33,201 nt of DNA. Source: an uncultured Eubacterium sp. GTDB taxonomy: Bacteria > Bacillota > Clostridia > Lachnospirales > Lachnospiraceae. The notes below the pieces were generated by a model. That model was not told the DNA's origin, searched no databases, and was given only the letters and a program-made list of their open reading frames with translations. Below, piece after piece: positions 12,967-30,495 of the stretch. Within the stretch, counting starts at the first letter, position 1. Each line of letters starts with the position of its first letter. The stretch covers positions 1 through 33,201 of the forward strand of contig CAMEWO010000023.1 of NCBI GenBank assembly GCA_945946665.1. The letters run 5' to 3'. Both the position numbers and the translations under genes were made by a program.

Positions 12967-13380
12967 ATGCAGGTTATTAAGTATGTATTTCAGCCACATG
13001 GCGATGACAGGGGACAACTTGTGGCTCTTGAGGAATTTAAAGATATACCATTCGAGATAAAAAGGGTGTATTACATGTATGATACTGCTGAAGGTGTAAC
13101 GAGGGGATGTCATGCACATAAAAATCTGCAACAGATATTAATATGTATCCATGGAAGCTGCAAGATTCGTCTCGATAATGGAAAAGAGAAAAAGATTGTA
13201 CCACTTGAAAAACCATATGAAGGGTTATATGTTTCTAACAATATGTGGAGAGAAATGTTTGATTTTTCTCCTGATGCAGTGCTTATGGTATTGGCATCAG
13301 AGTTGTATGACGAATCAGATTATATTAGGAATTATGAAGATTTTCTTGAATTTGTACGTAGAAATGAAGAAACAACATAA
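12967..13380 (+). CDS. fdtA: dTDP-4-keto-6-deoxyglucose 3,4-ketoisomerase (FdtA/QdtA-like)
   Basis: The 137-aa cupin of the WxcM-like/FdtA family moves the keto group of dTDP-4-keto-6-deoxyglucose from C4 to C3. The sequence shows FQPHGDDRGQLVALEEF near the start, then RVYYMYDT, RGCHAHKNLQQ with the active-site His residues, GSCKIRLDNG and NNMWREMFDFSPDAVLMVLA, all typical. It is followed at 17 bases by the aminotransferase that uses its product. The substrate comes from RmlA and RmlB at 28525-30495. FdtA and QdtA differ in C4 configuration, and I cannot separate them by eye. Confidence 0.87.
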   Translation: MQVIKYVFQPHGDDRGQLVALEEFKDIPFEIKRVYYMYDTAEGVTRGCHAHKNLQQILICIHGSCKIRLDNGKEKKIVPLEKPYEGLYVSNNMWREMFDFSPDAVLMVLASELYDESDYIRNYEDFLEFVRRNEETT

Positions 13381-13397
13381 GCAGAGGATGTTAATAT

Positions 13398-14495
13398 ATG
13401 AAGATACCATTTGTAAGTTTTAAACCAATGGAAAGAGAACTTGATGTTGAGTTGAGAGATGCCTTTAATCGTGTATATACAAGAAGTTGGTATATAGAAG
13501 GGGAAGAAGATGAGAAATTTGAAAATGCTTTTGCCAGATATTGCAATACAAGATATTGCGTTGGCACTGGAAATGGGTTAGATGCACTAATGCTGGCATT
13601 AAAAGCACTTGAAATTGAGGATGGAGATGAAGTAATTGTACCATCTAATACATATATAGCTACAGCATTAGCTGTTACATATGTTGGAGCAAAACCTGTA
13701 TTAGTTGAGCCAGATATTAGAACATTCAATATAGATCCCAATAGAATTGAATCAGCTATAACAAGAAAGACAAAAGCAATTATGCCAGTTCATCTATATG
13801 GTCAGCCGTGTGATATGGATCCTATTATTGATATAGCTAAAAACTACAATTTATATATAATAGAAGATTGCGCACAGGCCCATGGTGCTAAATATAAGGG
13901 AAAAGTAATAGGTTCCTTTGGTGATGTAGCGGGGTTTAGTTTCTATCCGGGAAAGAATCTTGGGGCTCTTGGCGATGCTGGGGCTGCAGTAACAAATGAT
14001 GAAGAACTTGCAAAAAAAATCCGAGCTTTAGGAAATTACGGTTCAGATTATAAATATCATCATATATATCTTGGTAATAATAGCAGACTTGACGAGATGC
14101 AAGCTGCGTTTTTATCAGCAAAATTACCACATCTTGATAAGATGAACGAAGAGAGAAGAAGAATTGCAAGAATGTACTTAGAAGGGATAAATAATCAAGA
14201 AGTAATTCTTCCATACATTCCAGATTATGCTGAACCAGTGTGGCATATATTCGGAATCAGATGCAAGAGAAGAAAAGAATTAGAAAAATGGCTTAATGAT
14301 GCTGGTATTGGTACAAATAAACATTATCCAATTCCTATACATCTTCAAGAATGCTATAAGGAACTTGGATATAAAGAAAATGATTACCCAGTTGCACAGG
14401 AGATAAGTGAAACAGAGCTTAGTTTGCCAATGTATTATGGTATGAATGAGCAAGAAGTTGGATATATAATAGATACGATAAATCATTTTAGATAA
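13398..14495 (+). CDS. fdtB: dTDP-3-keto-6-deoxyhexose 3-aminotransferase (FdtB/QdtB-like)
   Basis: The 365-aa PLP enzyme of the DegT/DnrJ/EryC1 family is of normal length. The start region [20 protein letters not shown] is typical of FdtB/QdtB/Tyl[17 protein letters not shown] near residue 54 binds the cofactor phosphate. [15 protein letters not shown] near 155 stacks on PLP, and the Schiff-base lysine is in [17 protein letters not shown] near 185. Paired with the ketoisomerase, it should make dTDP-3-amino-3,6-dideoxygalactose (Fuc3N) or the gluco form (Qui3N). The next step, N-acetylation, has two candidate hexapeptide enzymes in the locus. Confidence 0.88.
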
Positions 14496-14509: not shown

Positions 14510-15853
14510 ATGAAAAAAGTGGATTTTTTATTAATCTATGAACACAAAATGAGAGAACTGGAAAGTTTGTGCTTATTGAAATGTGAGTTGGAAAGAAAAG
14601 GATATAAGACAGATATTGTATCATGTGTTGAATTGCAATATGTTCGAAAACCGATATATAAGGCGGAAGTCGTAATATTACCAGGATGTGCCGATAATAA
14701 ATCTGTTGATTTTTATGTTGGACGTTTTGTTATATTTAATAAAATAATAAGTATGCAAAGAGAACAGATAATTAACAAGGTTGCAAAAGAAGATAAAAGT
14801 GGATGGAGTAAGCTGGCAGGAATAGGGAAAAATGCTTTTATATTTAGTTGGAGTGAACAAAATAGAAAGTGGCTTATTGAAAATGAGGGATGTAGTTACG
14901 ATCATGCAAAAGTAGTTGGAAATATTTCAATGGATTTTTGTAAAAGTAAATTCAAACGATTTTATTATGATAGAGAAAAGATTGCTGAAAAATACAATAT
15001 TGATAATAATAAAAAATGGATAACTTTTATATCGTCATTTTCTCTTGTGGGAATGTCTAACGAAGAGATGGATGCTTTGGTTGAAAGTTTAGGAATGAAT
15101 GAGTACTATCAATTGTATGATGTATCTGTTATAAGTCAACGTGAAATTTTGAAATGGTTTTCGACATTATTGGAAAAGGAAAAAGAAACTATTATTATAT
15201 ATAGACCACATCCGGGAGAAAAAATTAACCAAGAACTAAATAATATGATATCAAAATATAATAATTTTAAAGTGATTTTGGGAGAATCAGTTCAACAGTG
15301 GATACATATAAGTGATAAGATATATACATGGATAAGTACGTCTTTGGCAGATGCAATGTTCTGTAAAATTCCATGCTTTGTGCTTAGACCATATGATGTT
15401 CCTGATATGTTTGAAATTGAACTATATAGAGAAGCACAGTTTATTAGTTCTGAAGCGGATTTTATTAACTCCATCGATTCAAACTACTGCTATTATCCTA
15501 TATCTTTAGAGGAGTTAAAGAAACATTATTATTTTGATGAAAAAAGATATACATATGAAGAACAAATAGATATGTGCGAAAATATATTTGAATCAGAAAA
15601 ATATAGAATTCCGACAGATGATATGATTCAATTTAAAAAATATCAAAATAATAGATACAAAAATTTTAATATAAAAACATGGTTAAGGGGATGTAAGTTA
15701 TATAGATATTTGTATTACTTTATTATTAATAACTGTAAAATAAAGAAATTTGATAATAAGAGACAAAGACAAGAGTTTAGAGAATTAAAGAATAACAGAG
15801 AAATAGAAGATATTTGTAAACGAATATGTGAATGTTTATATCAGAAAGGATAG
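14510..15853 (+). CDS. Surface carbohydrate biosynthesis protein (candidate GT-B transferase)
   Basis: The 447-aa protein has a Rossmann-like N-terminal half (KVDFLLIYEHKMRELESLCL, then VVILPGCADNKSVDFYVGRF) and a C-terminal half with IIIYRPHPGEKINQ near residue 230 and ISTSLADAMFCKIPCFVL near 276. The RPHP and TSLADA features recall CDP-glycerol and sialyl/Kdo transferase folds, and such proteins often accompany nonulosonic acid genes. It lies 3 bases before the ABC exporter. A role as glycosyltransferase, perhaps for a CMP-sugar, is an inference. Confidence 0.7.
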   Translation: MKKVDFLLIYEHKMRELESLCLLKCELERKGYKTDIVSCVELQYVRKPIYKAEVVILPGCADNKSVDFYVGRFVIFNKIISMQREQIINKVAKEDKSGWSKLAGIGKNAFIFSWSEQNRKWLIENEGCSYDHAKVVGNISMDFCKSKFKRFYYDREKIAEKYNIDNNKKWITFISSFSLVGMSNEEMDALVESLGMNEYYQLYDVSVISQREILKWFSTLLEKEKETIIIYRPHPGEKINQELNNMISKYNNFKVILGESVQQWIHISDKIYTWISTSLADAMFCKIPCFVLRPYDVPDMFEIELYREAQFISSEADFINSIDSNYCYYPISLEELKKHYYFDEKRYTYEEQIDMCENIFESEKYRIPTDDMIQFKKYQNNRYKNFNIKTWLRGCKLYRYLYYFIINNCKIKKFDNKRQRQEFRELKNNREIEDICKRICECLYQKG

Positions 15854-17601: not shown

Positions 17602-18594
17602 ATGTTAAACAATAAAACAATTTTAGTAACAGGTGGAACAGGTTCATTCGGACATCAGTTCGTTAATTATGTTTTGAAGAATTACAAACTTAAGAAAATA
17701 ATAATATACTCAAGAGATGAATATAAGCAGTTTGTAATGGATAATGAATACAAAGAGCATAGAGATATTCTCAGATATTTCATAGGAGATGTAAGAGATG
17801 AAGGAAGGCTTAAGAGGGCATTGAATGGTGTAGATTATGTTGTTCATGCAGCAGCCCTTAAACAGGTACCAGCGTGTGAGTACAATCCAATTGAGGCTAT
17901 TAAGACTAATATCAATGGTGCAGTTAACGTTATTAATGCATCATTAGATGCTGGTGTTAAGAAGGTCGTTGCTTTATCAACAGATAAATCTGTTAATCCA
18001 ATTAATCTCTATGGTGGAACCAAGCTTGTATCAGACAAGCTGTTTATAGCAGCTAATTCCTATTCGGGTGAGGATGGAACAATATTCTCTATAGTGCGAT
18101 ATGGAAATGTGGCAGGAAGCAGAGGTTCGGTTATTCCATTCTTTGACAATATTATTAAGAATGGGGGAACAGAGCTTCCTATCACTGATTATAGAATGAC
18201 AAGATTCTGGATAAGCCTTGAAGAAGGCGTTAAGCTTGTTATTAAGGCTTTAGAAGAATCAAGAGGAGGTGAAACATTCATCTCTAAGATTCCTTCATTC
18301 AAGATAACTGACCTTGCCCAGGCTATGCTTCCAGGATGTGAGATGCCAGAAGTTGGAATCAGAGAAGGTGAGAAGCTTCACGAGATAATGATAACTACAG
18401 AGGATTCACTTCACACATATGAGTATGAGAAACACTTCATAGTATATCCACAGATGAATTTCTGGAATGAAGGAAAGGTAATTCCGGGTGGAAAGAAGTT
18501 GGAATATGGTTTTTCATATAGTTCTGGAAATAATAGTGAGTGGTACAATGTTGAGGATTTACAGAAACTTTTGAAAGAGCAGTATTATAACTAA
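17602..18594 (+). CDS. pseB: UDP-N-acetylglucosamine 4,6-dehydratase (inverting), PseB
   Basis: The 330-aa short-chain dehydrogenase-type enzyme carries out the first step to pseudaminic acid: UDP-GlcNAc to UDP-2-acetamido-2,6-dideoxy-beta-L-arabino-hexos-4-ulose. It has the NADP loop TGGTGSFGHQF (residues 9-19), AALKQVPACEYNP, STDKSVNPINLYGGTK with the YXXXK site near 145, and RYGNVAGSRGSVIPFF. The length is that of soluble PseB and not that of the long membrane-bound CapD type. It opens the pse block; one acetyltransferase gene stands between it and pseF. Confidence 0.92.
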   Translation: MLNNKTILVTGGTGSFGHQFVNYVLKNYKLKKIIIYSRDEYKQFVMDNEYKEHRDILRYFIGDVRDEGRLKRALNGVDYVVHAAALKQVPACEYNPIEAIKTNINGAVNVINASLDAGVKKVVALSTDKSVNPINLYGGTKLVSDKLFIAANSYSGEDGTIFSIVRYGNVAGSRGSVIPFFDNIIKNGGTELPITDYRMTRFWISLEEGVKLVIKALEESRGGETFISKIPSFKITDLAQAMLPGCEMPEVGIREGEKLHEIMITTEDSLHTYEYEKHFIVYPQMNFWNEGKVIPGGKKLEYGFSYSSGNNSEWYNVEDLQKLLKEQYYN

Positions 18595-19268: not shown

Positions 19269-19353
19269 ATGAGAAAAGAAAGCAAATAGATGTATTGGAA
19301 TTGGTGAGAGTACTGGGTGATACTAATTGTATTATAATACAGGAGAAATGATT

Positions 19354-20049
19354 ATGGATAATATTGCAATTATAACAGCTCGAGGTGGTTCTAAAAGAAT
19401 TCCTAAAAAAAATATAAGAGAATTCTGTGGCAGACCGATAATTGAATATAGTATAAGAGCTGCATTAGAAAGCAAACTTTTTGATGAGGTAATGGTATCG
19501 ACAGACAGCGAAGAAATAGCTGAGATATCCAAACAATGTGGAGCATCTGTTCCTTTCTTTAGAAGTGCACAGAATAGTAATGATTATGCTATAACAGCAG
19601 ATGTTATTAATGAAGTTATTATTGAGTATGAGAAATTAGGAAAGAGATTTGATACATTGTGTTGTATATATCCGACAGCACCATTTGTGACTGCTAAAAA
19701 ACTATCAGATGCATATAATGAGATGAAAAAAAATAACGCTGATTCAGCAATGACGGTGGTAAGATATGGGTTTCCTCCCCAGAGAGCAGTTGTTATAAGA
19801 AATGGCAAAATTGAATTTCAATATCCAGAATACTACAGAACAAGAAGTCAGGATTTAGAGCCAATATATCATGATTGTGGCCAATTCTATTTTTGTAATG
19901 TTGATGCATTCAAAAAATACAAGACAATGATAACTCCTAATTGTGTACCATTTGTAGTGTCTGAAGAAGAAGTGCAGGATATAGACAATATTTCAGATTG
20001 GAATATAGCTGAGATGAAGTATAATGCATCCAGGAAAAGGGAGAACTAA
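19354..20049 (+). CDS. pseF: CMP-pseudaminic acid synthetase, PseF
   Basis: The ATG at 19354 is 7 bases after AGGAGA; earlier in-frame starts at 19327 and 19348 fit worse. The 231-aa nucleotidyltransferase joins CMP to pseudaminic acid. It begins IAIITARGGSKRIPKKNIRE, the CTP loop, and continues with STDSEEIAEI, CIYPTAPFVTAKKL, YRTRSQDLEPIYHDCGQFYF and DIDNISDWNIAE. The YHDCGQFYF segment is characteristic of PseF rather than NeuA. It heads a tight run pseF-pseI-pseH-pseG-pseC with gaps of 7-17 bases. Confidence 0.92.
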   Translation: MDNIAIITARGGSKRIPKKNIREFCGRPIIEYSIRAALESKLFDEVMVSTDSEEIAEISKQCGASVPFFRSAQNSNDYAITADVINEVIIEYEKLGKRFDTLCCIYPTAPFVTAKKLSDAYNEMKKNNADSAMTVVRYGFPPQRAVVIRNGKIEFQYPEYYRTRSQDLEPIYHDCGQFYFCNVDAFKKYKTMITPNCVPFVVSEEEVQDIDNISDWNIAEMKYNASRKREN

Positions 20050-20056
20050 TAGAGGT

Positions 20057-21115
20057 ATGAATTACAGTATAAATATAAAAGGACGTAAGGTTGGTGCAAG
20101 CAATCCAACATATATTATTGCTGAGATGTCTGCAAACCATGCTGGAAGCATTGACAATGCCAGGGAAATAATCAGAATTGCCAAGGAATGTGGTGCAGAT
20201 TGTATTAAAGTCCAGACATATACGCCAGATACAATTACAATGGATTGTGATAATGAATACTTTCATATAGACAATGGTACATGGAAAGGCGAAAATCTGT
20301 ATCAACTGTATGGGAAAGCATATATGCCATGGGAGTGGCAGGGGGAATTGAAAGAAGAGGCGGAAAAGGTAGGAATAGACTTTTTCTCAACCCCATTCGA
20401 TAAATCGTCTGTGGATTTTCTGGAAAGCATTGGCATGGAATTCTACAAAATTGCATCATTTGAAATTGTTGATATTCCTTTGATTAAGTATGTTGCATCT
20501 AAAGGAAAGCCCATCATTATGTCAACCGGAATGGCAACATTGGCAGAAATTGATGAAGCAGTTGCTGCAATCAGGTCTGAAGGTAATAATCAGATAGCAT
20601 TACTTAGATGTGCAAGCGCATATCCTGCAATAACTGATGAGATGAATCTTAAGACAATGCAGAATATGTCGGAAACATTTGGAGTTCCAGTTGGCTTATC
20701 GGATCATTCTATGGGGTCAATAGGAGCCGTAACTGCTGTTGCGTTAGGAGCAAGTATTATAGAGAAACATTTTTGCCTAAGTAGAGATATAGTAACTCCT
20801 GATTCTTCGTTTTCTATGACTCCAGATGAATTCTCATGCATGGTAAAAGATATCAGGCAGGCTGAGAAAGCAATAGGCGTGGTTAAATATGGTCCGTCGA
20901 AGCAGGAAGAGACAAATATAAAGTTTAGAAAATCTATATTTGTTGAGAAGGACATATTGGCTGGACATGTTATTACGGAAGAGGATATTAGGATAATAAG
21001 ACCGGGATATGGAATGCATCCGAAATATTATGATAGTGTGGTTGGACAAAAGGCTTTAGTAGATATTAGGAGAGGTACTCCTTTACAATTTGGTATGATT
21101 AGCGACATTATATAA
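20057..21115 (+). CDS. pseI: Pseudaminic acid synthase, PseI
   Basis: The 352-aa enzyme condenses PEP with 2,4-diacetamido-2,4,6-trideoxy-L-altrose. Residues about 18-30 read IIAEMSANHAGSI, the PseI form of the NeuB motif; FFSTPFDKSSVDFLE, FYKIASFEIVDIPLI and GLSDHSMGSIGAVTAVALGA follow. The C-terminal SAF (antifreeze-like) domain runs from about 290 (RKSIFVEKDILAGHVITEED). I chose the ATG at 20057 because the family's conserved start is there; an ATG at 20024 would overlap pseF. The nearest strong site (AAAGGGAG) is about 13 bases away, so the exact start is slightly open. Confidence 0.93.
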   Translation: MNYSINIKGRKVGASNPTYIIAEMSANHAGSIDNAREIIRIAKECGADCIKVQTYTPDTITMDCDNEYFHIDNGTWKGENLYQLYGKAYMPWEWQGELKEEAEKVGIDFFSTPFDKSSVDFLESIGMEFYKIASFEIVDIPLIKYVASKGKPIIMSTGMATLAEIDEAVAAIRSEGNNQIALLRCASAYPAITDEMNLKTMQNMSETFGVPVGLSDHSMGSIGAVTAVALGASIIEKHFCLSRDIVTPDSSFSMTPDEFSCMVKDIRQAEKAIGVVKYGPSKQEETNIKFRKSIFVEKDILAGHVITEEDIRIIRPGYGMHPKYYDSVVGQKALVDIRRGTPLQFGMISDII

Positions 21116-21588: not shown

Positions 21589-22584
21589 ATGGTACATATC
21601 AGAGTGGATGCTAATAACATAATAGCAACAGGACATTTATTTAGGTGCATTTCCATAGCGGAAGCATTAAGAGAACTTGGCGAGGATGTTACATTCATTA
21701 TGGCTGACAATAATGGGGTATCCTTACTTGAAGACCGGTTTCCATACATTATATTAGACACAGACTGGCGTGATATGAATTCAGAATTAGCCATTCTGCG
21801 TGATATATTAGAACAAGAAAATGCAAAAAAGCTAATTATAGATAGTTATCAGGTAACAGAGAATTATCTGTCAGAAATAAGAAAATATGTTAAGACAACA
21901 TACATAGATGATGTTAATGCATTTTATTATGATGTGGATGAATTGATATGTTATGCAAACTATTATAGAAATAATAAATATGAGGAAAGATACTCCAAAA
22001 CTAAGTTATTGTTAGGATGTAATTATGTTCCATTGAGAAAAGAGTTTAGAAATGTGCCGGATAAAGTGATTAAACCGGATATAGATGAGTTGCTCATTAT
22101 GTCGGGTGGAACTGATTCTTATAATTTTATTGGGAATATCCTTGAGAATATTGATAGTTCCCAATATAAAAGGGTTAACGCAATATGTGGACGATATAAT
22201 GCATATTATGATGTTTTATATAAAAAATACAATGGAACGAATGTCAATATTGTCAGAAGTACAGATAATATCATAGATTATATGTTAAATGCAGATATTG
22301 CCATATCAGCATCAGGAGTGACATTATATGAGTTATGTGCCTGTGGAACACCAACTTTGTCATACGTTATGGCAGATAATCAGATAGATAACGCTATTCA
22401 ATTTGATAAGGATGGTATAATTTCTTATATGGGAGATATAAGAAAAGGTAATGTGATTAATAATATCATAAATAATCTGAAGACATATGATATGAAAAAT
22501 AGACAGATACAGTCATTGAGAATGAAAAAATATGTTGATAAAAATGGTGCACTAAACATTGCTGAAGAAGTAATTATGCTGTAG
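21589..22584 (+). CDS. pseG: UDP-2,4-diacetamido-2,4,6-trideoxy-beta-L-altropyranose hydrolase, PseG
   Basis: The 331-aa GT-B-fold hydrolase removes UDP before the PEP condensation. The start VHIRVDANNIIATGHLFRCI carries the catalytic His in the G-H-X-X-R-C motif near residue 15, and LLIMSGGTDSYN near 165 is the nucleotide loop. SASGVTLYELCACGTPTLSY near 240 is the C-terminal donor-site motif. The length and all motifs fit PseG. The gap to pseC is 14 bases. Confidence 0.92.
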   Translation: MVHIRVDANNIIATGHLFRCISIAEALRELGEDVTFIMADNNGVSLLEDRFPYIILDTDWRDMNSELAILRDILEQENAKKLIIDSYQVTENYLSEIRKYVKTTYIDDVNAFYYDVDELICYANYYRNNKYEERYSKTKLLLGCNYVPLRKEFRNVPDKVIKPDIDELLIMSGGTDSYNFIGNILENIDSSQYKRVNAICGRYNAYYDVLYKKYNGTNVNIVRSTDNIIDYMLNADIAISASGVTLYELCACGTPTLSYVMADNQIDNAIQFDKDGIISYMGDIRKGNVINNIINNLKTYDMKNRQIQSLRMKKYVDKNGALNIAEEVIML

Positions 22585-22598
22585 AAATGGAGAAAATA

Positions 22599-23795
22599 AT
22601 GGAGCAGTTAGCAATTAATGGCGGGAAACCGGTTCGTGAGAATAAAATATACTATGGACACCAATGTATTGATGATGATGATATTAATGCGGTTGTTGAA
22701 GTGTTAAAGAGTGATTATCTTACATGTGGACCTAAGATAGAACAGTTAGAAAAGAAATTATGCGATATCACAGGTTCTAAGTATGCAACGGCTGTCAGCA
22801 ATGGTACAGCTGCACTTCATGTTGCCTGCATGGCAGCGGGAATTGGCAAAGGTGATGAAGTAATTGTTACTCCTCTAACATTTGCAGCGTCTGCCAACTG
22901 TATATTATACTGTGGTGGAACACCAGTATTTGCTGATGTTAACCCAGAAACATATAATATTGAACCGGATTGTATAGAAAGTCTTATAACTCCTAGGACT
23001 AAAGCTGTTGTTGCGGTTGATTTTACTGGACAGGCAGTGGATGCAGACAGAATCAGGAAGATATGTGATGAACATAATCTGATATTTATTGAAGATGCAG
23101 CACATTCAATTGGAACCAGGTATAATGGGAAATGTGTTGGTAATATAGCAGATATAACTACATTCAGTTTTCATCCCGTTAAAACTGTTACTTCTGGTGA
23201 GGGCGGGGCTGTTATGACCAATAGTGATGAATTACACAAAAAAATTGTTCTTGCGAAGTCACATGGTATAACACATGACCTTACTGAGATGAAGGAAAAG
23301 AATCCAGAGGGACCATGGTATTATGAGCAGATAGAGCTTGGATATAATTACCGAATGACTGACTTTCAGGCAGCATTACTTATGAGCCAGTTAGACAAGC
23401 TTGAGAGGTTCTCAGACAGAAGGAAACAGATTGTAGCAAAATATAATGTGGCATTCAGTAAGATTCCTGAGATAATAATTCAGAAAGAGATAGAAGAGTC
23501 AGACACAACAAGACATCTCTACATAATAAGGTTGAATTTTGATATGATTAGCTGTACACGCCGTGAATTCTTTGATGCGATGTCAGCTGAGGGGGTACAG
23601 TGTCAGATTCATTATGTTCCAGTGTATTGGTTTCCATATTATGAGAACATGGGATATAAGAGGGGGCTATGTCCTAATGCCGAGATGATATATAAGAGTT
23701 GCATGAGTATACCATTGTATCCAGGCATGTCTGATAGGGATGTGGAAGACGTGATAAAAGCAGTGACAAAGATCACAAACTATTATGGGAGATAG
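22599..23795 (+). CDS. pseC: UDP-4-amino-4,6-dideoxy-N-acetyl-beta-L-altrosamine transaminase, PseC
   Basis: The ATG at 22599 follows GGAGA by 5 bases; the earlier in-frame ATG at 22587 overlaps that site. The 398-aa DegT/DnrJ-type PLP enzyme has KPVRENKIYYGHQCIDDDDI near the start, then SDYLTCGPKIEQLE, ATAVSNGTAALHVACMAAGI, FIEDAAHSIG and the lysine site FSFHPVKTVTSGEGGAVM near 185. These are PseC features. It completes the six-enzyme CMP-pseudaminic acid set. Confidence 0.92.
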   Translation: MEQLAINGGKPVRENKIYYGHQCIDDDDINAVVEVLKSDYLTCGPKIEQLEKKLCDITGSKYATAVSNGTAALHVACMAAGIGKGDEVIVTPLTFAASANCILYCGGTPVFADVNPETYNIEPDCIESLITPRTKAVVAVDFTGQAVDADRIRKICDEHNLIFIEDAAHSIGTRYNGKCVGNIADITTFSFHPVKTVTSGEGGAVMTNSDELHKKIVLAKSHGITHDLTEMKEKNPEGPWYYEQIELGYNYRMTDFQAALLMSQLDKLERFSDRRKQIVAKYNVAFSKIPEIIIQKEIEESDTTRHLYIIRLNFDMISCTRREFFDAMSAEGVQCQIHYVPVYWFPYYENMGYKRGLCPNAEMIYKSCMSIPLYPGMSDRDVEDVIKAVTKITNYYGR

Positions 23796-23800
23796 TGTCT

Positions 23801-25597
23801 ATGAAACATTTAGTTGTTAATGATAATGTAAAGTTAGTTAAGGAAGAAAAATATATTTTTGTTGATCAGCTAATGGCTAATAAAGTATTAGCTTATAACA
23901 AAAATATAAATTATTGTGTGATTAAAAACCCTTGGTTAAATAAAGAAAGATATCAAGAGGCTCACGACTATATTGCGAGCTTTAAAAAGAAAGTATTATC
24001 AGAATTAGTAGAACAACTAAATGAAATTTATAAGTTAAAATTTGATTATAATCAGTGGAACATTCTTATTGGTATGTGGTTAACTGATATATTATTTTTA
24101 ATTTATGATCATTATACAAGAATTACTTCAATAGACGAGAGATTCAATCTTGTAATAAATAAAATAAATATAGAAACTAATAGGAGTGTAGCTGAAAGTA
24201 TATCAAGTATGGTATGTGATGACTATTTTAACGCTTTTATATATTCGGTGATATGCAAAGAATTAGGAATTGAAATTATTTATAAAGAGGAAAGAGATTC
24301 TACAAAAGTAATAAAAAAATTGTGTTATTATATGCAATCAAAATATGGTAGAAAAAAAATAGCGGATAAGTTAATTAAAAAGAAAAGAAAATCAAAGCAT
24401 GATTTTAATGGTGCAATAATAGATAAGGTGAAAGAAGGCACAGAAATAGTTGTTATAAAAGGGAGATTTCCAAATGGTTTAGAAAATGCTATAAAAGATG
24501 AAGTCGGAGATAGGATAGTAATGTTTTCGGATTCTGATTTTGAAAACATAGAGAGTTATATAATATGCGATACTCAAGATGAACATCCCATTAGTATAAA
24601 CTTTGATAATTTAACATTTGATAATAGATTTGAAGAGATTGCTGCAAAGATAGTGCCATGTATAATTCCTGAAGAATTCTGTGTGAATAATTTTATCAAT
24701 ATTTATAAAAAAGCAGAAAATATTATAAAACAATGGAATATAAAAAAAATATATTCTAGCGCATATATTGGAATAGGTTTTTTGGCATCTATGTGTGCAT
24801 CCTTAGAATATGATAAAAATGTTGAGGTTATAGATATTCAACATTCAGCAGGGTATAATTTGAATAATAGTGCCATATATAATGAATCATTAGTATTTGA
24901 TAAAATATTAACATGGGGATGGAAAACAGGACGTAAAATATATGGATGTGATATAGATAGTTTTAGTATAAATAGAACAATTTTGTCAGAAAATATGTCA
25001 TACGATAGTAAAAGTGATAGAATTTTATATGCAACTAATCAAATTGAAAGCTACGAAGTTGGCAGAGGATTGATATGCGATAATTATGAAAAAAGACATT
25101 TTGAGTTAATAGATGAGTTAAATGAAGATGAAAAAAAACATTTGATTGTCAGATTGTTTACGGATGATATTAATAGTTCTATCATGCATAAGTACATATG
25201 TGAATATAAAAATATAAAACTTGAAAATGTAAGAGAGATAAAGTTTTATGACAGTTTATCACGTAGTAAATTATTAATATGTGATAGTTATGGCTCTACG
25301 CATATTGAGTCAATGATATTGAATCATCCAGTAATGTTTTTTAATGGAATAGACATGCCAATAAAGAATGAACAAGTTGAAGATTTGTTAGATGAATTAA
25401 AGAAAGTATATATATATGCAGACTCACCAAAAGAATTAATGGACAATTATAGAAAAATAGATAATATAAAACAATGGTGGGATAGTTCTATTGTGCAGGA
25501 AACGGTGAAGAGATATCTTGACGTATGTGCGAATGGTTATAATAAAGATTTAAAAAAGATATGGATAAGCGAATTTTTAAAGGAAAACATAAATTGA
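23801..25597 (+). CDS. LIC12162-family putative transferase
   Basis: The ATG at 23801 is 8 bases after GGGAGA; the in-frame GTG at 23795 shares its first base with the previous stop. The 598-aa product has no signal peptide or membrane helix. Its front region QWNILIGMWLTDILFLIYDH (about 78-97) and later segments (VIDIQHSAGYN near 344, WGWKTGRKIYG near 370, LLICDSYGSTHIESMILNHP near 490) fit the LIC12162 family of large putative transferases from O-antigen and nonulosonic acid loci. The C-terminal half resembles a GT-B donor domain. It directly follows pseC, so transfer of pseudaminic acid is a reasonable guess. Confidence 0.7.
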   Translation: MKHLVVNDNVKLVKEEKYIFVDQLMANKVLAYNKNINYCVIKNPWLNKERYQEAHDYIASFKKKVLSELVEQLNEIYKLKFDYNQWNILIGMWLTDILFLIYDHYTRITSIDERFNLVINKINIETNRSVAESISSMVCDDYFNAFIYSVICKELGIEIIYKEERDSTKVIKKLCYYMQSKYGRKKIADKLIKKKRKSKHDFNGAIIDKVKEGTEIVVIKGRFPNGLENAIKDEVGDRIVMFSDSDFENIESYIICDTQDEHPISINFDNLTFDNRFEEIAAKIVPCIIPEEFCVNNFINIYKKAENIIKQWNIKKIYSSAYIGIGFLASMCASLEYDKNVEVIDIQHSAGYNLNNSAIYNESLVFDKILTWGWKTGRKIYGCDIDSFSINRTILSENMSYDSKSDRILYATNQIESYEVGRGLICDNYEKRHFELIDELNEDEKKHLIVRLFTDDINSSIMHKYICEYKNIKLENVREIKFYDSLSRSKLLICDSYGSTHIESMILNHPVMFFNGIDMPIKNEQVEDLLDELKKVYIYADSPKELMDNYRKIDNIKQWWDSSIVQETVKRYLDVCANGYNKDLKKIWISEFLKENIN

Positions 25598-25669: not shown

Positions 25670-26329
25670 ATGAAGACAGTAGCATTTGTACCAATAAAGT
25701 TAAATAATCAAAGAACACCGGGTAAAAATACAAAAAAATTTGATGATGGTTCAGCGTTGATAACAGTTTTCTTAAGAACATTAGTTAAAGTAAAAGAATT
25801 TGATGAAATATATGTGTTTTGCAGTAATCAAGAGATAAAAGATTATTTGATTGAAGGGGTAGAGTATTTAGAAAGACCAAAATATTTAGATACCCAGGAA
25901 GCGACACCCCAACAAATTATGGGCGAATTTATTAAGAGAGTTGATGCTGACATATATGCTGTTTGTCATTGTACATCGCCATTTGTTACGGCCGAACATT
26001 TTAGTGAATGCGTGAATGCTGTAATAAGTGCAAAAAATGATTCATCATTTACAGCGGAAAAAATTCAAAGATTATTATGGTCGAGTGATAATAAACCATT
26101 TAATTTTGATCCGACTAATATACCAAGAACTCAGGATTTGAAGCCTATATATAATGAGGTATCTGCTGCATATGTATTTAAAAAGGAAGTGTTTGAAAAA
26201 TATAAACGAAGAATTGGTATCAATCCTCATATTACAGAGGTATCTGGAGTTGAATGCGTTGATATAGATTATCCAGAAGATTTTGAAATAGCTAATGCAA
26301 TATATATGTCGATTGTAAAATGGAGATAA
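25670..26329 (+). CDS. Second, divergent CMP-sugar synthetase (NeuA/KdsB-like)
   Basis: The 219-aa nucleotidyltransferase has AFVPIKLNNQRTPGKNTKKF in place of the usual ARGGSKRIPKKN loop. It continues with EIYVFCSN, VCHCTSPFVTAEHFSEC, IPRTQDLKPIYNEVSAAYVF and VECVDIDYPEDFEIANAIY. The overall plan is that of CMP-acylneuraminate synthetases, but the CTP loop is altered, so it is not a copy of PseF. It forms a unit with the aldolase-like gene (gap 5) and the KdsC-like phosphatase, which suggests a different 2-keto-3-deoxy acid as substrate. AAGGGG stands 8 bases before the ATG. Confidence 0.8.
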   Translation: MKTVAFVPIKLNNQRTPGKNTKKFDDGSALITVFLRTLVKVKEFDEIYVFCSNQEIKDYLIEGVEYLERPKYLDTQEATPQQIMGEFIKRVDADIYAVCHCTSPFVTAEHFSECVNAVISAKNDSSFTAEKIQRLLWSSDNKPFNFDPTNIPRTQDLKPIYNEVSAAYVFKKEVFEKYKRRIGINPHITEVSGVECVDIDYPEDFEIANAIYMSIVKWR

Positions 26330-26334
26330 TAGAT

Positions 26335-27954
26335 ATGAATCATGCAATGTTACTTGATTGTACTTTAAGAGATGGGGCTTATATTGTTGATAAGACATTT
26401 GGTGATGATACAATAATAGGAATTATTAATGGACTTGTGAAATCTAGGATTGATTGTATAGAAATTGGTTTCTTTCAGGATGAAGGATTTGGACCAGGTA
26501 AAACCGTTTATAAAAATTCGGCAGATGCCCAAAAATATATCCCGTCAGATAAAGGTGAAAGTATTTTTACAGTTTTGGCAGATTGTAGTAGATATTCAAT
26601 TGAAAATTTAGATGAGTGTACAGGTGATTCAATTGATGCAGTTAGAGAGTGTTTCTTTAAAAGTGAGAGATATAAAGCTATTGATAATTGTAAAACCATA
26701 ATAAAAAAGGGATATAAATGTTTTGTTCAGCCTGTTGATATATTAGGATATAATGATATAGAATTAATAGAACTGATTAATATTATCAATGAGGTTGAGC
26801 CTTATTGTTTATCAATAGTTGATACATTTGGTTCTATGTATCAAGAGGATTTGCATAGAGTGTTTGAAATTATTAACCATAACTTGACACCAAGCTGTAA
26901 GGTAGGGTTTCATTCGCATAATAATATGCAATTGTCAAATGCACTTTCTCAAGAGTTCTTAAGAATGGCTTATGGAAAAAGGAAGGTTATTATTGATGGA
27001 ACTATTTCTGGAATGGGAAGAGGAGCAGGAAATACACCGACTGAATTAATAGCACAATATATGGTTTCACAGTTGGGATATAATTATGATATGGATGAGT
27101 TGTTAGATATTATTGATGATTACATGGATAATATTAAATCAAAATGCAGTTGGGGATATTCAACTTCATATTTTGTTGCGGGGAGTTATGGAGCACATGT
27201 TAACAATATTGCGTACTTATCTCAGAAAAATAGTATTCGTTCCAAGGACATTAGGTATATATTAAATAAAGTTGGTTCAGATGCTAGAAAACGTTATGAC
27301 TATGATTTATTAGAAAAGACATATATAGAATATTTGGAAGCAAATGTTAATGATGACTTAGCACTAAATAAATTGTATCAACAGTTGAACAATAAAGAAA
27401 TTCTGATATTAGTTCCTGGAAAAAGTGTATCTGTTGAACAAGATAGGATAAAGGATTATATTCAGAATAATAATCCTGTTGTAATTAGTGTTAGTTATGT
27501 TGATGCAAATTTTATAGCAGATTATGTATATATGAGTAATGTTCGAAGATATAACTATTGGAAGGATAAAGAATTGTTTATATCAAAGAAAAAAATAATA
27601 ACATCGAATATTAAAGTTGCAAAGGAAAATGAGTCTGAATATATTATTTCGTTTAATAATTTAGTAAAATGCGGTTGGAATCATATTGATAATTCTACAC
27701 TTATGTTGTTAAGATTATTAGATAAATTAGAAGTTGGCAGTATTGCAATAGCTGGATTTGACGGATATAGCTTTGATGGAGATATAATATCCAATTATGC
27801 ATCAAAAGAACTTGAATTATCAAATGTTGTAGATAATCCAACAGAACTAAATAAAGAAATATACGGTATGTTAGAAGATTATAATGAAACTAGAAAAAGT
27901 AAGATTGCAATAAAATTTATTACGGAATCTCGTTTCGCTGAGATATTTGAGTAA
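26335..27954 (+). CDS. DRE-TIM pyruvate-aldolase-like protein with extra C-terminal domain
   Basis: The ATG at 26335 is 8 bases after GGAGA; an ATG at 26320 overlaps that site. The product has 539 aa. Residues 1 to about 290 are an HMGL-like barrel close to 4-hydroxy-2-oxovalerate aldolase (DmpG): LLDCTLRDGAY (6-16), CIEIGFF, the metal-binding GFHSHNNMQLSNA (about 191-203) and DGTISGMGRGAGNTPTELI (about 220-238). Such enzymes use a metal and pyruvate enolate to add to an aldehyde. Residues about 350-539 form a separate domain starting ILILVPGKSVSVEQDRIKDY, which recalls the DUF115/MptE-like Rossmann domain. Together with the flanking CMP-synthetase and phosphatase it may build a 2-keto-3-deoxy sugar acid. 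Substrate and direction are not proven. Confidence 0.82.
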   Translation: MNHAMLLDCTLRDGAYIVDKTFGDDTIIGIINGLVKSRIDCIEIGFFQDEGFGPGKTVYKNSADAQKYIPSDKGESIFTVLADCSRYSIENLDECTGDSIDAVRECFFKSERYKAIDNCKTIIKKGYKCFVQPVDILGYNDIELIELINIINEVEPYCLSIVDTFGSMYQEDLHRVFEIINHNLTPSCKVGFHSHNNMQLSNALSQEFLRMAYGKRKVIIDGTISGMGRGAGNTPTELIAQYMVSQLGYNYDMDELLDIIDDYMDNIKSKCSWGYSTSYFVAGSYGAHVNNIAYLSQKNSIRSKDIRYILNKVGSDARKRYDYDLLEKTYIEYLEANVNDDLALNKLYQQLNNKEILILVPGKSVSVEQDRIKDYIQNNNPVVISVSYVDANFIADYVYMSNVRRYNYWKDKELFISKKKIITSNIKVAKENESEYIISFNNLVKCGWNHIDNSTLMLLRLLDKLEVGSIAIAGFDGYSFDGDIISNYASKELELSNVVDNPTELNKEIYGMLEDYNETRKSKIAIKFITESRFAEIFE

Positions 27955-27962
27955 GGTGTATT

Positions 27963-28460
27963 ATGATAAAATTTTTGGTTATGGATGTTGATGGCACATT
28001 GACAGATGGAAAAATCTATATGGGAAAAGATGGCGAGGTATGTAAGGCTTTTGATATTAAGGATGGATGTGGCATTAAAGATATTTTGCCTAAGCATGAA
28101 ATTATTCCTGTGATTATAACAGCAAGATCTAGTGTAATTGTGAAAAATAGATGTGAAGAACTTGGTATATCAATGTGCTATCAGGGAACGAGACATAAAT
28201 ATGATAAATTAATGGAAATTATATCAGATTATAATAATGAGCATGGCGAAAAATACACATTAGAAAATTGTGCGTATATAGGTGACGATATAGTAGATTT
28301 ATTCTGTATGAAAGAGATTAAAAAAAGTAATGGTATTGTTGGTTGTCCACAAAATTCAACAAAAGAGGTGGTTGAAGTCTCTGATTTTGTGTCTCATTGT
28401 AAAGGCGGAGAAGGTGCAGTACGAGAATTTATAGAGTGGATAGTTGAAAAAAGCCTATAA
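27963..28460 (+). CDS. KdsC-like HAD phosphatase
   Basis: The 165-aa C0-type HAD protein is the size of KdsC. DVDGTLTDGKIYMGKDGEVC (residues 8-27) has the two catalytic Asp residues, AFDIKDGCGIK follows, ITARSS is motif II, YIGDDIVDL is motif IV and GGEGAVREFIEWI is the KdsC-type tail that closes the active site of the neighbouring subunit. KdsC enzymes hydrolyse Kdo-8-phosphate, and relatives hydrolyse Kdn-9-phosphate. No kdsA or kdsD is present. The gap to the aldolase gene is 8 bases, so the likely substrate is the phosphorylated product of that aldolase. Confidence 0.87.
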   Translation: MIKFLVMDVDGTLTDGKIYMGKDGEVCKAFDIKDGCGIKDILPKHEIIPVIITARSSVIVKNRCEELGISMCYQGTRHKYDKLMEIISDYNNEHGEKYTLENCAYIGDDIVDLFCMKEIKKSNGIVGCPQNSTKEVVEVSDFVSHCKGGEGAVREFIEWIVEKSL

Positions 28461-28524: not shown

Positions 28525-29421
28525 ATGAAAGGCATAATTTTAGCAGGTGGATCGGGTACAAGGCTGTATCCATTAACAAAAGTTACAAGTAAACAGTTAT
28601 TACCAGTATATGATAAACCGATGATATATTATCCGATGTCGGTATTAATGAATGCAGGGATAAGGGACATTCTTATTATATCTACTCCACAGGATACACC
28701 AAGATTTCAGGATTTGCTGGGGGATGGCCATCAATTTGGTGTTAATCTGTCATATGCAGTTCAGCAGGTACCAGGTGGGTTGGCACAGGCATTTATTATA
28801 GGTGCAGATTTTATAGGTGATGATACTGTTGCTATGGTGCTCGGTGATAATATATTTGCTGGGCATGGTCTTAAGAAACGTATGGAAGCAGCAGTTGAAA
28901 GAGCTGATAGTGGTGAAGGTGCGACGGTATTCGGATACTATGTTGATGACCCTGAGAGATTTGGTATAGTGGAATTCGATAAGAATGGTAAAGCTGTATC
29001 AATTGAGGAGAAGCCAGAGAATCCAAAGAGTAATTACTGTGTGACTGGATTATATTTCTACGATAATCTTGTGGTTGATTATGCTAAGAGTCTTAAGCCA
29101 TCTGCACGAGGAGAGCTGGAGATTACAGACCTTAACCGTATTTATCTTGAAGATGGTTCGCTTAATGTCGAGCTTCTTGGACAGGGATTTACATGGCTTG
29201 ATACAGGTACGCATGAGAGTCTTGTGGATGCTACAAATTTTGTTAAAACGGTGGAGCAACACCAGCACAGAAAGATTGCGTGTCTTGAAGAAATTGCTTA
29301 TCTTAATGGGTGGATCAGCAAGGGTGAGCTGATGAGTGTGTATGAGATTATGAAGAAGAATCAGTATGGACAGTACCTGAAGGATGTCATGGATGGCAAA
29401 TATCAGGAACGTTTATACTAG
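28525..29421 (+). CDS. rmlA: Glucose-1-phosphate thymidylyltransferase, RmlA
   Basis: The 298-aa enzyme makes dTDP-glucose. It starts [20 protein letters not shown] with the nucleotide loop, then [49 protein letters not shown] and [10 protein letters not shown], all standard for the family. AGGAG precedes the ATG. It feeds RmlB (gap 30). With no RmlC or RmlD nearby, the intermediate is likely diverted to the FdtA/FdtB route. Confidence 0.95.
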
Positions 29422-29451
29422 AATAACATTTGGAAGAAAAGAGAGTATGGT

Positions 29452-30495
29452 ATGAACATTATTGTTACAGGCGGAGCGGGATTTATTGGTAGTAATTTTA
29501 TATTTCACATGTTGAAGAAGTATCCAAATTATCGCATTATATGTCTTGATAAGCTTACATATGCTGGTAATCTATCTACCTTGGCACCAGTTATGGACAA
29601 TCCTAATTTTAGATTTGTGAAAGTGGATATATGTAACCGAGATATGGTTTATAAGTTATTTGAAGAGGAGCAGCCAGATATGGTCGTCAATTTTGCTGCG
29701 GAATCGCATGTTGACCGTTCTATAGAGGATCCAGAAGTATTCCTTGATACGAATATTAAGGGAACTGCGGTACTTATGGATGCTTGCAGAAAATATGGGA
29801 TTAAGCGTTATCATCAGGTCTCAACGGATGAGGTATATGGTGACTTGCCACTTGACAGGCCTGATATATTCTTTACGGAGGAAACTCCGATACATACAAG
29901 TTCGCCTTACAGTTCATCTAAGGCAGGAGCAGATTTGCTTGTGCTTGCATATCATCGCACATATGGGTTGCCTGTATCTATCAGCCGTTGCTCTAATAAC
30001 TATGGCCCATATCATTTTCCAGAGAAATTGATTCCGCTTATGATAGTAAATGCTTTAGCTGACAAGCAATTGCCTGTATATGGTGAGGGGTTAAATGTGC
30101 GTGATTGGCTTTACGTTGAGGATCATTGTAAGGCTATTGACCTTATAATTCATAGAGGACGTGTAGGCGAGGTCTACAATGTTGGCGGGCATAATGAAAA
30201 GACAAATATTGAGATTGTAAGACTTATATGCAAGGAACTTGGTAAGCCGGAATCGTTAATTACACATGTGGCTGACCGAAAGGGGCATGATATGCGTTAT
30301 GCTATTGACCCCACAAAAATTCATAATGAACTGGGGTGGCTTCCTGAGACACGATTTGAAGATGGTATCAAGAAAACTATTAAGTGGTATCTAAATAATC
30401 GTGAATGGTGGGATGCTATTATCAGTGGGGAATATCAGAATTATTATGAGAAAATGTATGGTGGTCGCTGTATGTCAGATGTAAACGTCAAGTAA
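29452..30495 (+). CDS. rmlB: dTDP-glucose 4,6-dehydratase, RmlB
   Basis: The 347-aa extended short-chain dehydrogenase has the NAD loop VTGGAGFIGSNF (residues 5-16), FAAESHVDRSI near 84, the catalytic STDEVYGDLP near 125, and YSSSKAGADLLV with the YXXXK site near 160. It makes dTDP-4-keto-6-deoxyglucose, the substrate of the ketoisomerase at 12967. The ribosome binding site is weak (GAGAG). Base use in rmlA and rmlB is less AT-rich than in the two genes that follow. Confidence 0.95.
   Translation: MNIIVTGGAGFIGSNFIFHMLKKYPNYRIICLDKLTYAGNLSTLAPVMDNPNFRFVKVDICNRDMVYKLFEEEQPDMVVNFAAESHVDRSIEDPEVFLDTNIKGTAVLMDACRKYGIKRYHQVSTDEVYGDLPLDRPDIFFTEETPIHTSSPYSSSKAGADLLVLAYHRTYGLPVSISRCSNNYGPYHFPEKLIPLMIVNALADKQLPVYGEGLNVRDWLYVEDHCKAIDLIIHRGRVGEVYNVGGHNEKTNIEIVRLICKELGKPESLITHVADRKGHDMRYAIDPTKIHNELGWLPETRFEDGIKKTIKWYLNNREWWDAIISGEYQNYYEKMYGGRCMSDVNVK

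Follow-up and report, generated by a model that had tools for sequence, protein, structure and literature searches.

The window analysed here is the whole stretch of 33,201 nucleotides of contig CAMEWO010000023.1 from an uncultured Eubacterium sp. (Lachnospiraceae), whose genome (G000) comprises 2.45 Mb in 48 contigs and is 99.95% complete. Our subject is a trio of adjacent genes on one strand of this window, predicted to encode the synthesis and activation of an acidic sugar by way of an aldolase:

25670..26329, + strand: cytidine monophosphate (CMP)-sugar-acid synthetase, NeuA/PseF-like and divergent; 219 amino acids (aa); PF02348 (CTP_transf_3)
26335..27954 (first possible ATG at 26320), + strand: predicted class II pyruvate aldolase, DmpG fold with a C-terminal region; HMGL-like
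27963..28460, + strand: KdsC-type HAD phosphatase; 165 aa; TIGR01670

A sequence-only reading of this DNA had named these three families and placed the genes 5 and 8 bases apart, and both statements hold. The synthetase matches CTP_transf_3 with 35.7 bits (Pfam gathering cut-off 22.6), the aldolase matches the HMGL-like family with 72.5 bits (cut-off 29) and the phosphatase matches the KdsC subfamily TIGR01670 with 131.9 bits (cut-off 106.95). Narrower models are missed by all three. The synthetase scores 65.8 against the PseF equivalog, far below the cut-off of 205.7 and the 302 reached by the other synthetase of the window, and by score it is clearly not a PseF; its closest solved relative by sequence is PpNeuA, on which we found no paper. 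For the aldolase, the best NCBIfam model is that of 4-hydroxy-2-oxovalerate aldolase (84.1 versus a cut-off of 229), and the curated DmpG model TIGR03217 gives 74.7 versus 286. The phosphatase scores 128.7 versus 208 on the KdsC equivalog PRK09484, and its best solved relatives are KdsC enzymes. The aldolase open reading frame (ORF; 26320-27954) would encode 544 aa from its first ATG, a start that would overlap the synthetase gene by 10 bases. The start is most likely at 26335, since a GGAG lies nine bases upstream and the corresponding Met is the start of a relative (L033); this start yields the gap of 5 bases.

The DmpG-type barrel of the aldolase spans approximately residues 1-340, and the match found by a whole-model fold search covers residues 4-340. 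We take R17, D18, H198 and H200 to be the metal and pyruvate residues of DmpG-type aldolases; this Arg/Asp/His/His site is kept in 61 of 61 aligned sequences and can be aligned with 1nvm. The GMGxGAGN loop is present, as in the DmpG type. No family of acylating aldehyde dehydrogenases, the partner of DmpG, was found by Pfam among the 30 ORFs of the window, to which this search was confined. A second, distant barrel is encoded elsewhere in the genome (G000:C26:17253-18140; L002, L092; 25% identity), and short barrels of this kind are found in numerous genomes of the family; phages gave two partial aldolase matches.

The recurrence of the trio was followed in two samples. The first comprises 250 genomes drawn from the family. 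An aldolase match at E<=1e-10 is found in 108 of them, in many cases a distant and short one; around 59 of the stronger places, and around the distant paralog of the window's own genome, 8 to 19 kb were taken for comparison. The second matches within G052, G129, G029 and G179 did not enter the sample, nor did most of the weak matches. The contig set consists of the best 80 of 574 confirmed aldolase matches, mostly from metagenome assemblies, of which 75 gave a row (all but L134, L140, L151, L153 and L154). The resulting 135 rows represent 129 distinct loci and 6 duplicates (loci fetched twice), which are included in counts over rows; the distant paralog (L092) and proteins shorter than 315 aa were excluded. 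A cytidylyltransferase lies directly upstream of the aldolase in 65 of the 129 distinct loci, with a phosphatase as the next gene downstream in 30 of these and as the second in 4. Counted over rows, the cytidylyltransferase is at this position in 67 of 135, versus a total of 11 for every other position up to eight genes away, and the association of the trio exceeds chance. Within four genes of the aldolase, 72 of the 129 loci have a cytidylyltransferase, 43 only a thiamine diphosphate (ThDP) enzyme and 14 neither. The family draw (60) has 30 cytidylyltransferase and 24 ThDP loci, none with both and 6 with neither; the corresponding numbers in the contig set (75) are 44, 22, 1 and 8. Cytidylyltransferase-type carriers in the contig set (n=45) belong to Bacillota (36), Bacteroidota (2), Melainabacteria (2), Campylobacterota, Synergistota and Fusobacteriota (1 each), with 2 unplaced. 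Named carriers include Proteocatella sphenisci (L170) and Herbinix hemicellulosilytica (L138). The co-occurrence expected by the sequence-only reading is thus borne out, since the genes travel together in many genera and several phyla. A Leisingera plasmid carries the trio in the order aldolase, KdsB, HAD, with an aldolase identity of 25%. Two clusters of neighbouring proteins (from 11 and 7 of the 75 loci, 3 duplicates) have representatives matching polysialyltransferases above cut-off, only single representatives of clusters having been scanned against Pfam or NCBIfam. In L033 and L141, a TylF-like methyltransferase and an acyltransferase, possible modifiers that say nothing about the aldehyde, are inserted between aldolase and phosphatase. 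Among the titles and abstract openings listed by searches of open-licence PMC, none describes the trio, which is not proof that it is unpublished.

Variants of the gene order are recorded here as side observations. In L036, L105, L107, L108 and L110, an MptE-like protein is encoded ahead of KdsB-aldolase-KdsC and the flanking genes are on the opposite strand, forming a compact four-gene unit; in L105 this protein is fused to a CDP-glycerol glycerophosphotransferase-type domain. In L172 (Bacteroidales), a KdsB-type and a NeuA-type synthetase stand in a row before the aldolase, upstream of position 2817.

The well-known CMP-activated ulosonic acids (3-deoxy-D-manno-octulosonic acid, Kdo, and sialic, legionaminic and pseudaminic acids) are made by phosphoenolpyruvate (PEP)-dependent synthases of the KdsA or NeuB type, and the genes of these synthases therefore serve as markers for such sugars. 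In the window genome, KdsA (TIGR01362) has no match at E<=0.001 and the single NeuB (PF03102) match is the PseI of the window, in agreement with the earlier remark that the locus lacks a second synthase. In a set of 31 genomes picked for the context of their aldolase, KdsA never exceeds its cut-off, and 15 of the genomes are without a genuine NeuB (12 have weak matches only, 3 have none). The weak NeuB matches of those 12 fall on genes that are also weakly matched by the KdsA model and are presumably 3-deoxy-D-arabino-heptulosonate 7-phosphate (DAHP) synthases. A cytidylyltransferase lies within four genes of the aldolase in 14 of the 15, so that the pairing does occur in genomes with neither a genuine NeuB nor a KdsA above cut-off.

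The type of synthetase changes even between the closest aldolases. In a quick aldolase tree with 44 open forks, the NeuA-like, KdsB-like and ThDP states need 20 changes, versus 7 for cytidylyltransferase against ThDP. The starred set of 16 rows that holds the window has 8 KdsB-type and 8 NeuA-type synthetases, and the closest aldolase to that of the window (76% over the barrel) adjoins a KdsB. NeuA and KdsB families both activate ulosonic acids; their exchange on one aldolase therefore points to a product of this class. The TIGR00466 kdsB cut-off is passed by four of the seven aldolase-linked KdsB-type proteins that were scanned (L064, L080, L097, L108) and missed by three (L053, L098, L174).

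Genomes with the PEP-dependent route place this aldolase in perspective. KdsA is above cut-off in 5 of the 250 family genomes, and the arabinose-5-phosphate isomerase KpsF in 5 of these 250 and in 3 of 391 genomes of the class, six genomes altogether. Five of the six group synthetase, KdsA and KpsF, the synthetase being of KdsB type in L176, L178 and L180 (with one gene between synthetase and KdsA in L178 and L180) and of the window's type in L177 and L179. In the sixth (G153, L085), a window-type synthetase and KpsF accompany a single-domain aldolase, and KdsA is absent. By comparison of these two arrangements, the aldolase occupies the slot of KdsA, once, in the single case of L085, with the isomerase retained. 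In the synthetase tree, the window-type enzymes of L177 and L179 fall inside a starred set of 11 rows, together with 9 aldolase-linked synthetases; the three KdsA-linked KdsBs group separately. In a further family genome, G052 (L186:7382-8922), a KdsA above cut-off lies beside a very divergent synthetase, which is a long branch apart in this tree, and KpsF does not reach its cut-off anywhere in the genome. Near the aldolase of a Treponema locus (L162:3147-3743), a sugar isomerase domain of 199 aa resembles KpsF and may hint at the aldehyde.

On this basis, it is quite probable that the trio forms a pathway, complete in itself, in which a pyruvate aldolase builds a 2-keto-3-deoxy sugar acid for activation with CMP. 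With pyruvate bound on a divalent metal, the aldolase would form the enolate, and this would attack the aldehyde group of an aldose phosphate supplied by central metabolism to yield a 2-keto-3-deoxy acid phosphate. Dephosphorylation by the KdsC-type enzyme would follow; being irreversible, it would draw the reversible aldol step towards product. After ring closure of the free keto acid, the synthetase would add CMP at C2, and a transferase would place the sugar onto a surface polysaccharide. A product of 6 to 8 carbons is plausible, its length being set by the aldehyde.

The nearest competing explanation is a plain CMP-Kdo pathway in which the aldolase replaces KdsA and condenses pyruvate with arabinose-5-phosphate to give Kdo-8-phosphate. 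The joint presence of aldolase, synthetase and KpsF in L085 speaks for this pathway, and the window-type synthetase subfamily does adjoin KdsA and KpsF in L177 and L179; however, KpsF/KdsD (TIGR00393) has no match at E<=0.001 in the window genome, and among the fetched stretches of the 72 cytidylyltransferase-type loci a full-length KpsF is found only in L085 (L077 has one weak match, E 2e-4). The binding pockets also argue against Kdo. In the 32 aldolase-linked KdsBs, R10, R15, K19, D101 and D228 are all invariant, whereas His175 and Tyr179 are each kept in 18, and the glutamine of the EQLR motif is kept in none, versus 3 of 3 KdsA-linked KdsBs and both solved KdsBs whose alignments were inspected, a comparison that covers KdsB-type relatives and not the NeuA-like synthetase of the window. 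The CTP end of these enzymes is thus conserved and the sugar end not. As we take the lost glutamine to be a Kdo contact, the product of the cassette is probably not Kdo, and we regard the plain Kdo route as rather unlikely.

Two further alternatives seem to us very improbable, and to a similar degree. The trio might be an accessory of the Pse pathway, modifying or recycling Pse: its genes immediately follow the Pse operon, and its synthetase is distantly PseF-like. Nevertheless, a PseI-like protein is encoded in the fetched stretch of only one of the 72 cytidylyltransferase-type loci, the window itself, and the 14 genomes mentioned above lack both a genuine NeuB and a KdsA above cut-off. The window moreover encodes PseB, C, F, G and I, each above cut-off, which supports the earlier proposal that the product of the trio is distinct from pseudaminic acid. 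Alternatively, the barrel might be an acetyl-CoA-dependent Claisen synthase of the isopropylmalate or homocitrate type, with which it shares a superfamily and to whose models it has weak matches; the conserved Arg/Asp/His/His site and the GMGxGAGN loop are those of the DmpG type.

Returning to the pyruvate aldolase, its second home offers a further view of its chemistry. The gene order of L073 (5543-12902) is RfbF, RfbG, RfbH (400.9, 460.3 and 727.6, with cut-offs of 300.25, 278.45 and 423), then aldolase, then HAD and ThDP enzyme, and an RfbF label lies within four genes in 22 of 46 ThDP-type rows. On a Desulfobaculum plasmid, the aldolase accompanies an annotated rfbH and a split transketolase. 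In L055 the ThDP enzyme resembles acetolactate synthase, with a score below cut-off; among solved structures its best relative by a wide margin is 8rph, a thiamine-pyrophosphate-binding protein (401 bits, the next reaching 257). Loci that combine ThDP enzymes with CDP-3,6-dideoxyhexose genes are a likely source of long-branched sugars. According to a review (PMC12247030), ErwE joins a hydroxylated alpha-keto acid to CDP-4-keto-3,6-dideoxyglucose with a preference for 4-hydroxy-2-oxo acids, and MMAR_2332 of the caryophyllose pathway resembles ErwE; such acids are the expected products of a pyruvate aldol reaction. The branch of caryophyllose is described as 1,3,4,5-tetrahydroxyhexyl (PMC5706390). 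In our view, a ThDP-dependent transfer from a 2-keto-3-deoxy acid would leave such a branch. The word 'aldolase' is absent from the main text of PMC5706390, PMC12507525 and PMC13171606. Indirectly, and independently of the CMP context, the ThDP context supports the role of pyruvate aldolase. We lean slightly towards the view that aldolase and phosphatase form a general module which has repeatedly replaced KdsA for non-Kdo CMP-ulosonic acids and separately feeds ThDP-dependent grafting onto CDP-4-keto-3,6-dideoxyhexoses, giving long branches of the caryophyllose and erwiniose type.

Several observations weigh against the proposed route by way of a pyruvate aldolase to a CMP-activated sugar acid. 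The histidine following RDGS, H21, is presumably the catalytic base of DmpG, and it is a tyrosine in the window aldolase and in 51 of the 61 aligned sequences. Beyond the barrel, some 200 C-terminal residues have no assigned role: MptE-like profiles reach E<=1 for 5 of 59 members, with a best value of 0.0016, a match to SteA-like 9hmz (E 0.0089) spans just 42 residues, and a hidden Markov model comparison with the neighbouring MptE-like proteins gives at most 40% probability. No phosphatase is recognised at the next two positions in 31 of the 65 loci with an adjacent upstream synthetase; 9 of these reach a contig or strand boundary at that point, leaving 22 with none recognised. L099 is the only one of the 72 cytidylyltransferase-type loci that also has a ThDP enzyme within four genes, and an RfbF label occurs anywhere in the stretch in just 2 of them. 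The donor of YerE, the founding branching enzyme, is pyruvate (PMC12247030), and the ThDP context alone therefore does not prove a keto acid. Finally, neighbour labels were derived from the family-draw aldolase neighbours, so that counts based on them are partly circular, the contig set and the Leisingera plasmid being less dependent checks. The finding stands, and is broader than the sequence-only reading in adding the C-terminal region and the ThDP context. The sequences show the families, their order and recurrence, the retained metal and pyruvate residues and the lack of KdsA; each reaction, and the product, is predicted.

The surroundings of the trio comprise the following features:

14510..15853, + strand: candidate glycosyltransferase for the second CMP-sugar; TIGR04396 140.4 bits, cut-off 125
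17602..18594, + strand: PseB of the pseudaminic acid operon; TIGR03589 532.7, above cut-off
19327..20049, + strand: PseF, CMP-pseudaminic acid synthetase; TIGR03584 302, cut-off 205.7
20024..21115, + strand: PseI, the only NeuB-type synthase match of the genome (single PF03102 match in G000); TIGR03586 472.1, above cut-off
21589..22584, + strand: PseG; TIGR03590 171.6, above cut-off
22587..23795, + strand: PseC; TIGR03588 473, above cut-off
23795..25597, + strand: LIC12162-like transferase; TIGR04331 166 bits, below the cut-off of 225

A PseH-like protein of the same operon scores below cut-off. The TIGR04396 protein is a candidate for the glycosyltransferase acting on the CMP-sugar of the trio: its relatives (E<1e-5) occur at 5 other cytidylyltransferase-type loci and one untyped aldolase locus, and in 0 of 46 ThDP-type rows. 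The LIC12162-like transferase has no relative at this threshold in the other compared stretches and probably belongs with the Pse operon, not with the trio. Genes for an FdtA-like ketoisomerase, a DegT aminotransferase, a nucleotidyltransferase and a dehydratase (12967-14495 and 28525-30495) point to a dTDP-amino-deoxy sugar within the same polysaccharide. A 227-aa ORF (1998-2681) that lies upstream of this locus joins HipA N-terminal and HIRAN domains. A general scan of the Pfam matches of the 30 window ORFs gave no pointer to a phosphonate route.

If this second chemistry is true, KdsA- and NeuB-based searches overlook a whole class of acidic sugars on cell surfaces, and new acidic sugars are predicted on gut commensals. 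The scale is indicated by the cytidylyltransferase found at 30 of the 60 family-draw aldolase loci, versus the 5 of 250 genomes with KdsA. The finding may also be relevant to where the donors for long-branched sugars, caryophyllose among them, come from.

Among known systems, the CMP-Kdo pathway (KdsB-KdsA-KdsD-KdsC) follows the same logic, with the synthetase upstream in the same slot and a KdsC-type phosphatase, and Kdo-type cytidylyltransferases are found in about half of the cytidylyltransferase-type aldolase relatives. The cassette differs in that its C-C bond would be formed by a metal-dependent pyruvate aldolase instead of the PEP-dependent KdsA, in the lack of an arabinose-5-phosphate isomerase match in the window genome and in the altered sugar pocket of the aldolase-linked KdsBs. 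The closest relatives of the aldolase itself include the 'putative aldolase' BVU_2661 (PDB 3dxi) and the DmpG-type 4-hydroxy-2-oxovalerate aldolases (PDB 1nvm, 4jn6); the latter share the barrel over residues 4-341, R17, D18/H198/H200 and the GMGxGAGN loop, whereas the window enzyme has Tyr for His21, an additional C-terminal region, a polysaccharide context and no dehydrogenase partner in the window. The pseudaminic acid pathway (PseB-C-H-G-I-F) in the same window likewise yields a CMP-activated ulosonic acid, but that route is derived from UDP-GlcNAc and uses the PEP-dependent PseI. Lastly, the CDP-3,6-dideoxyhexose/ThDP neighbourhood of YerE-like branching enzymes (YerE, ErwE, MMAR_2332; PMC12247030) is the other home of the aldolase family, where the keto acid would be a carboligation donor and not CMP-activated.

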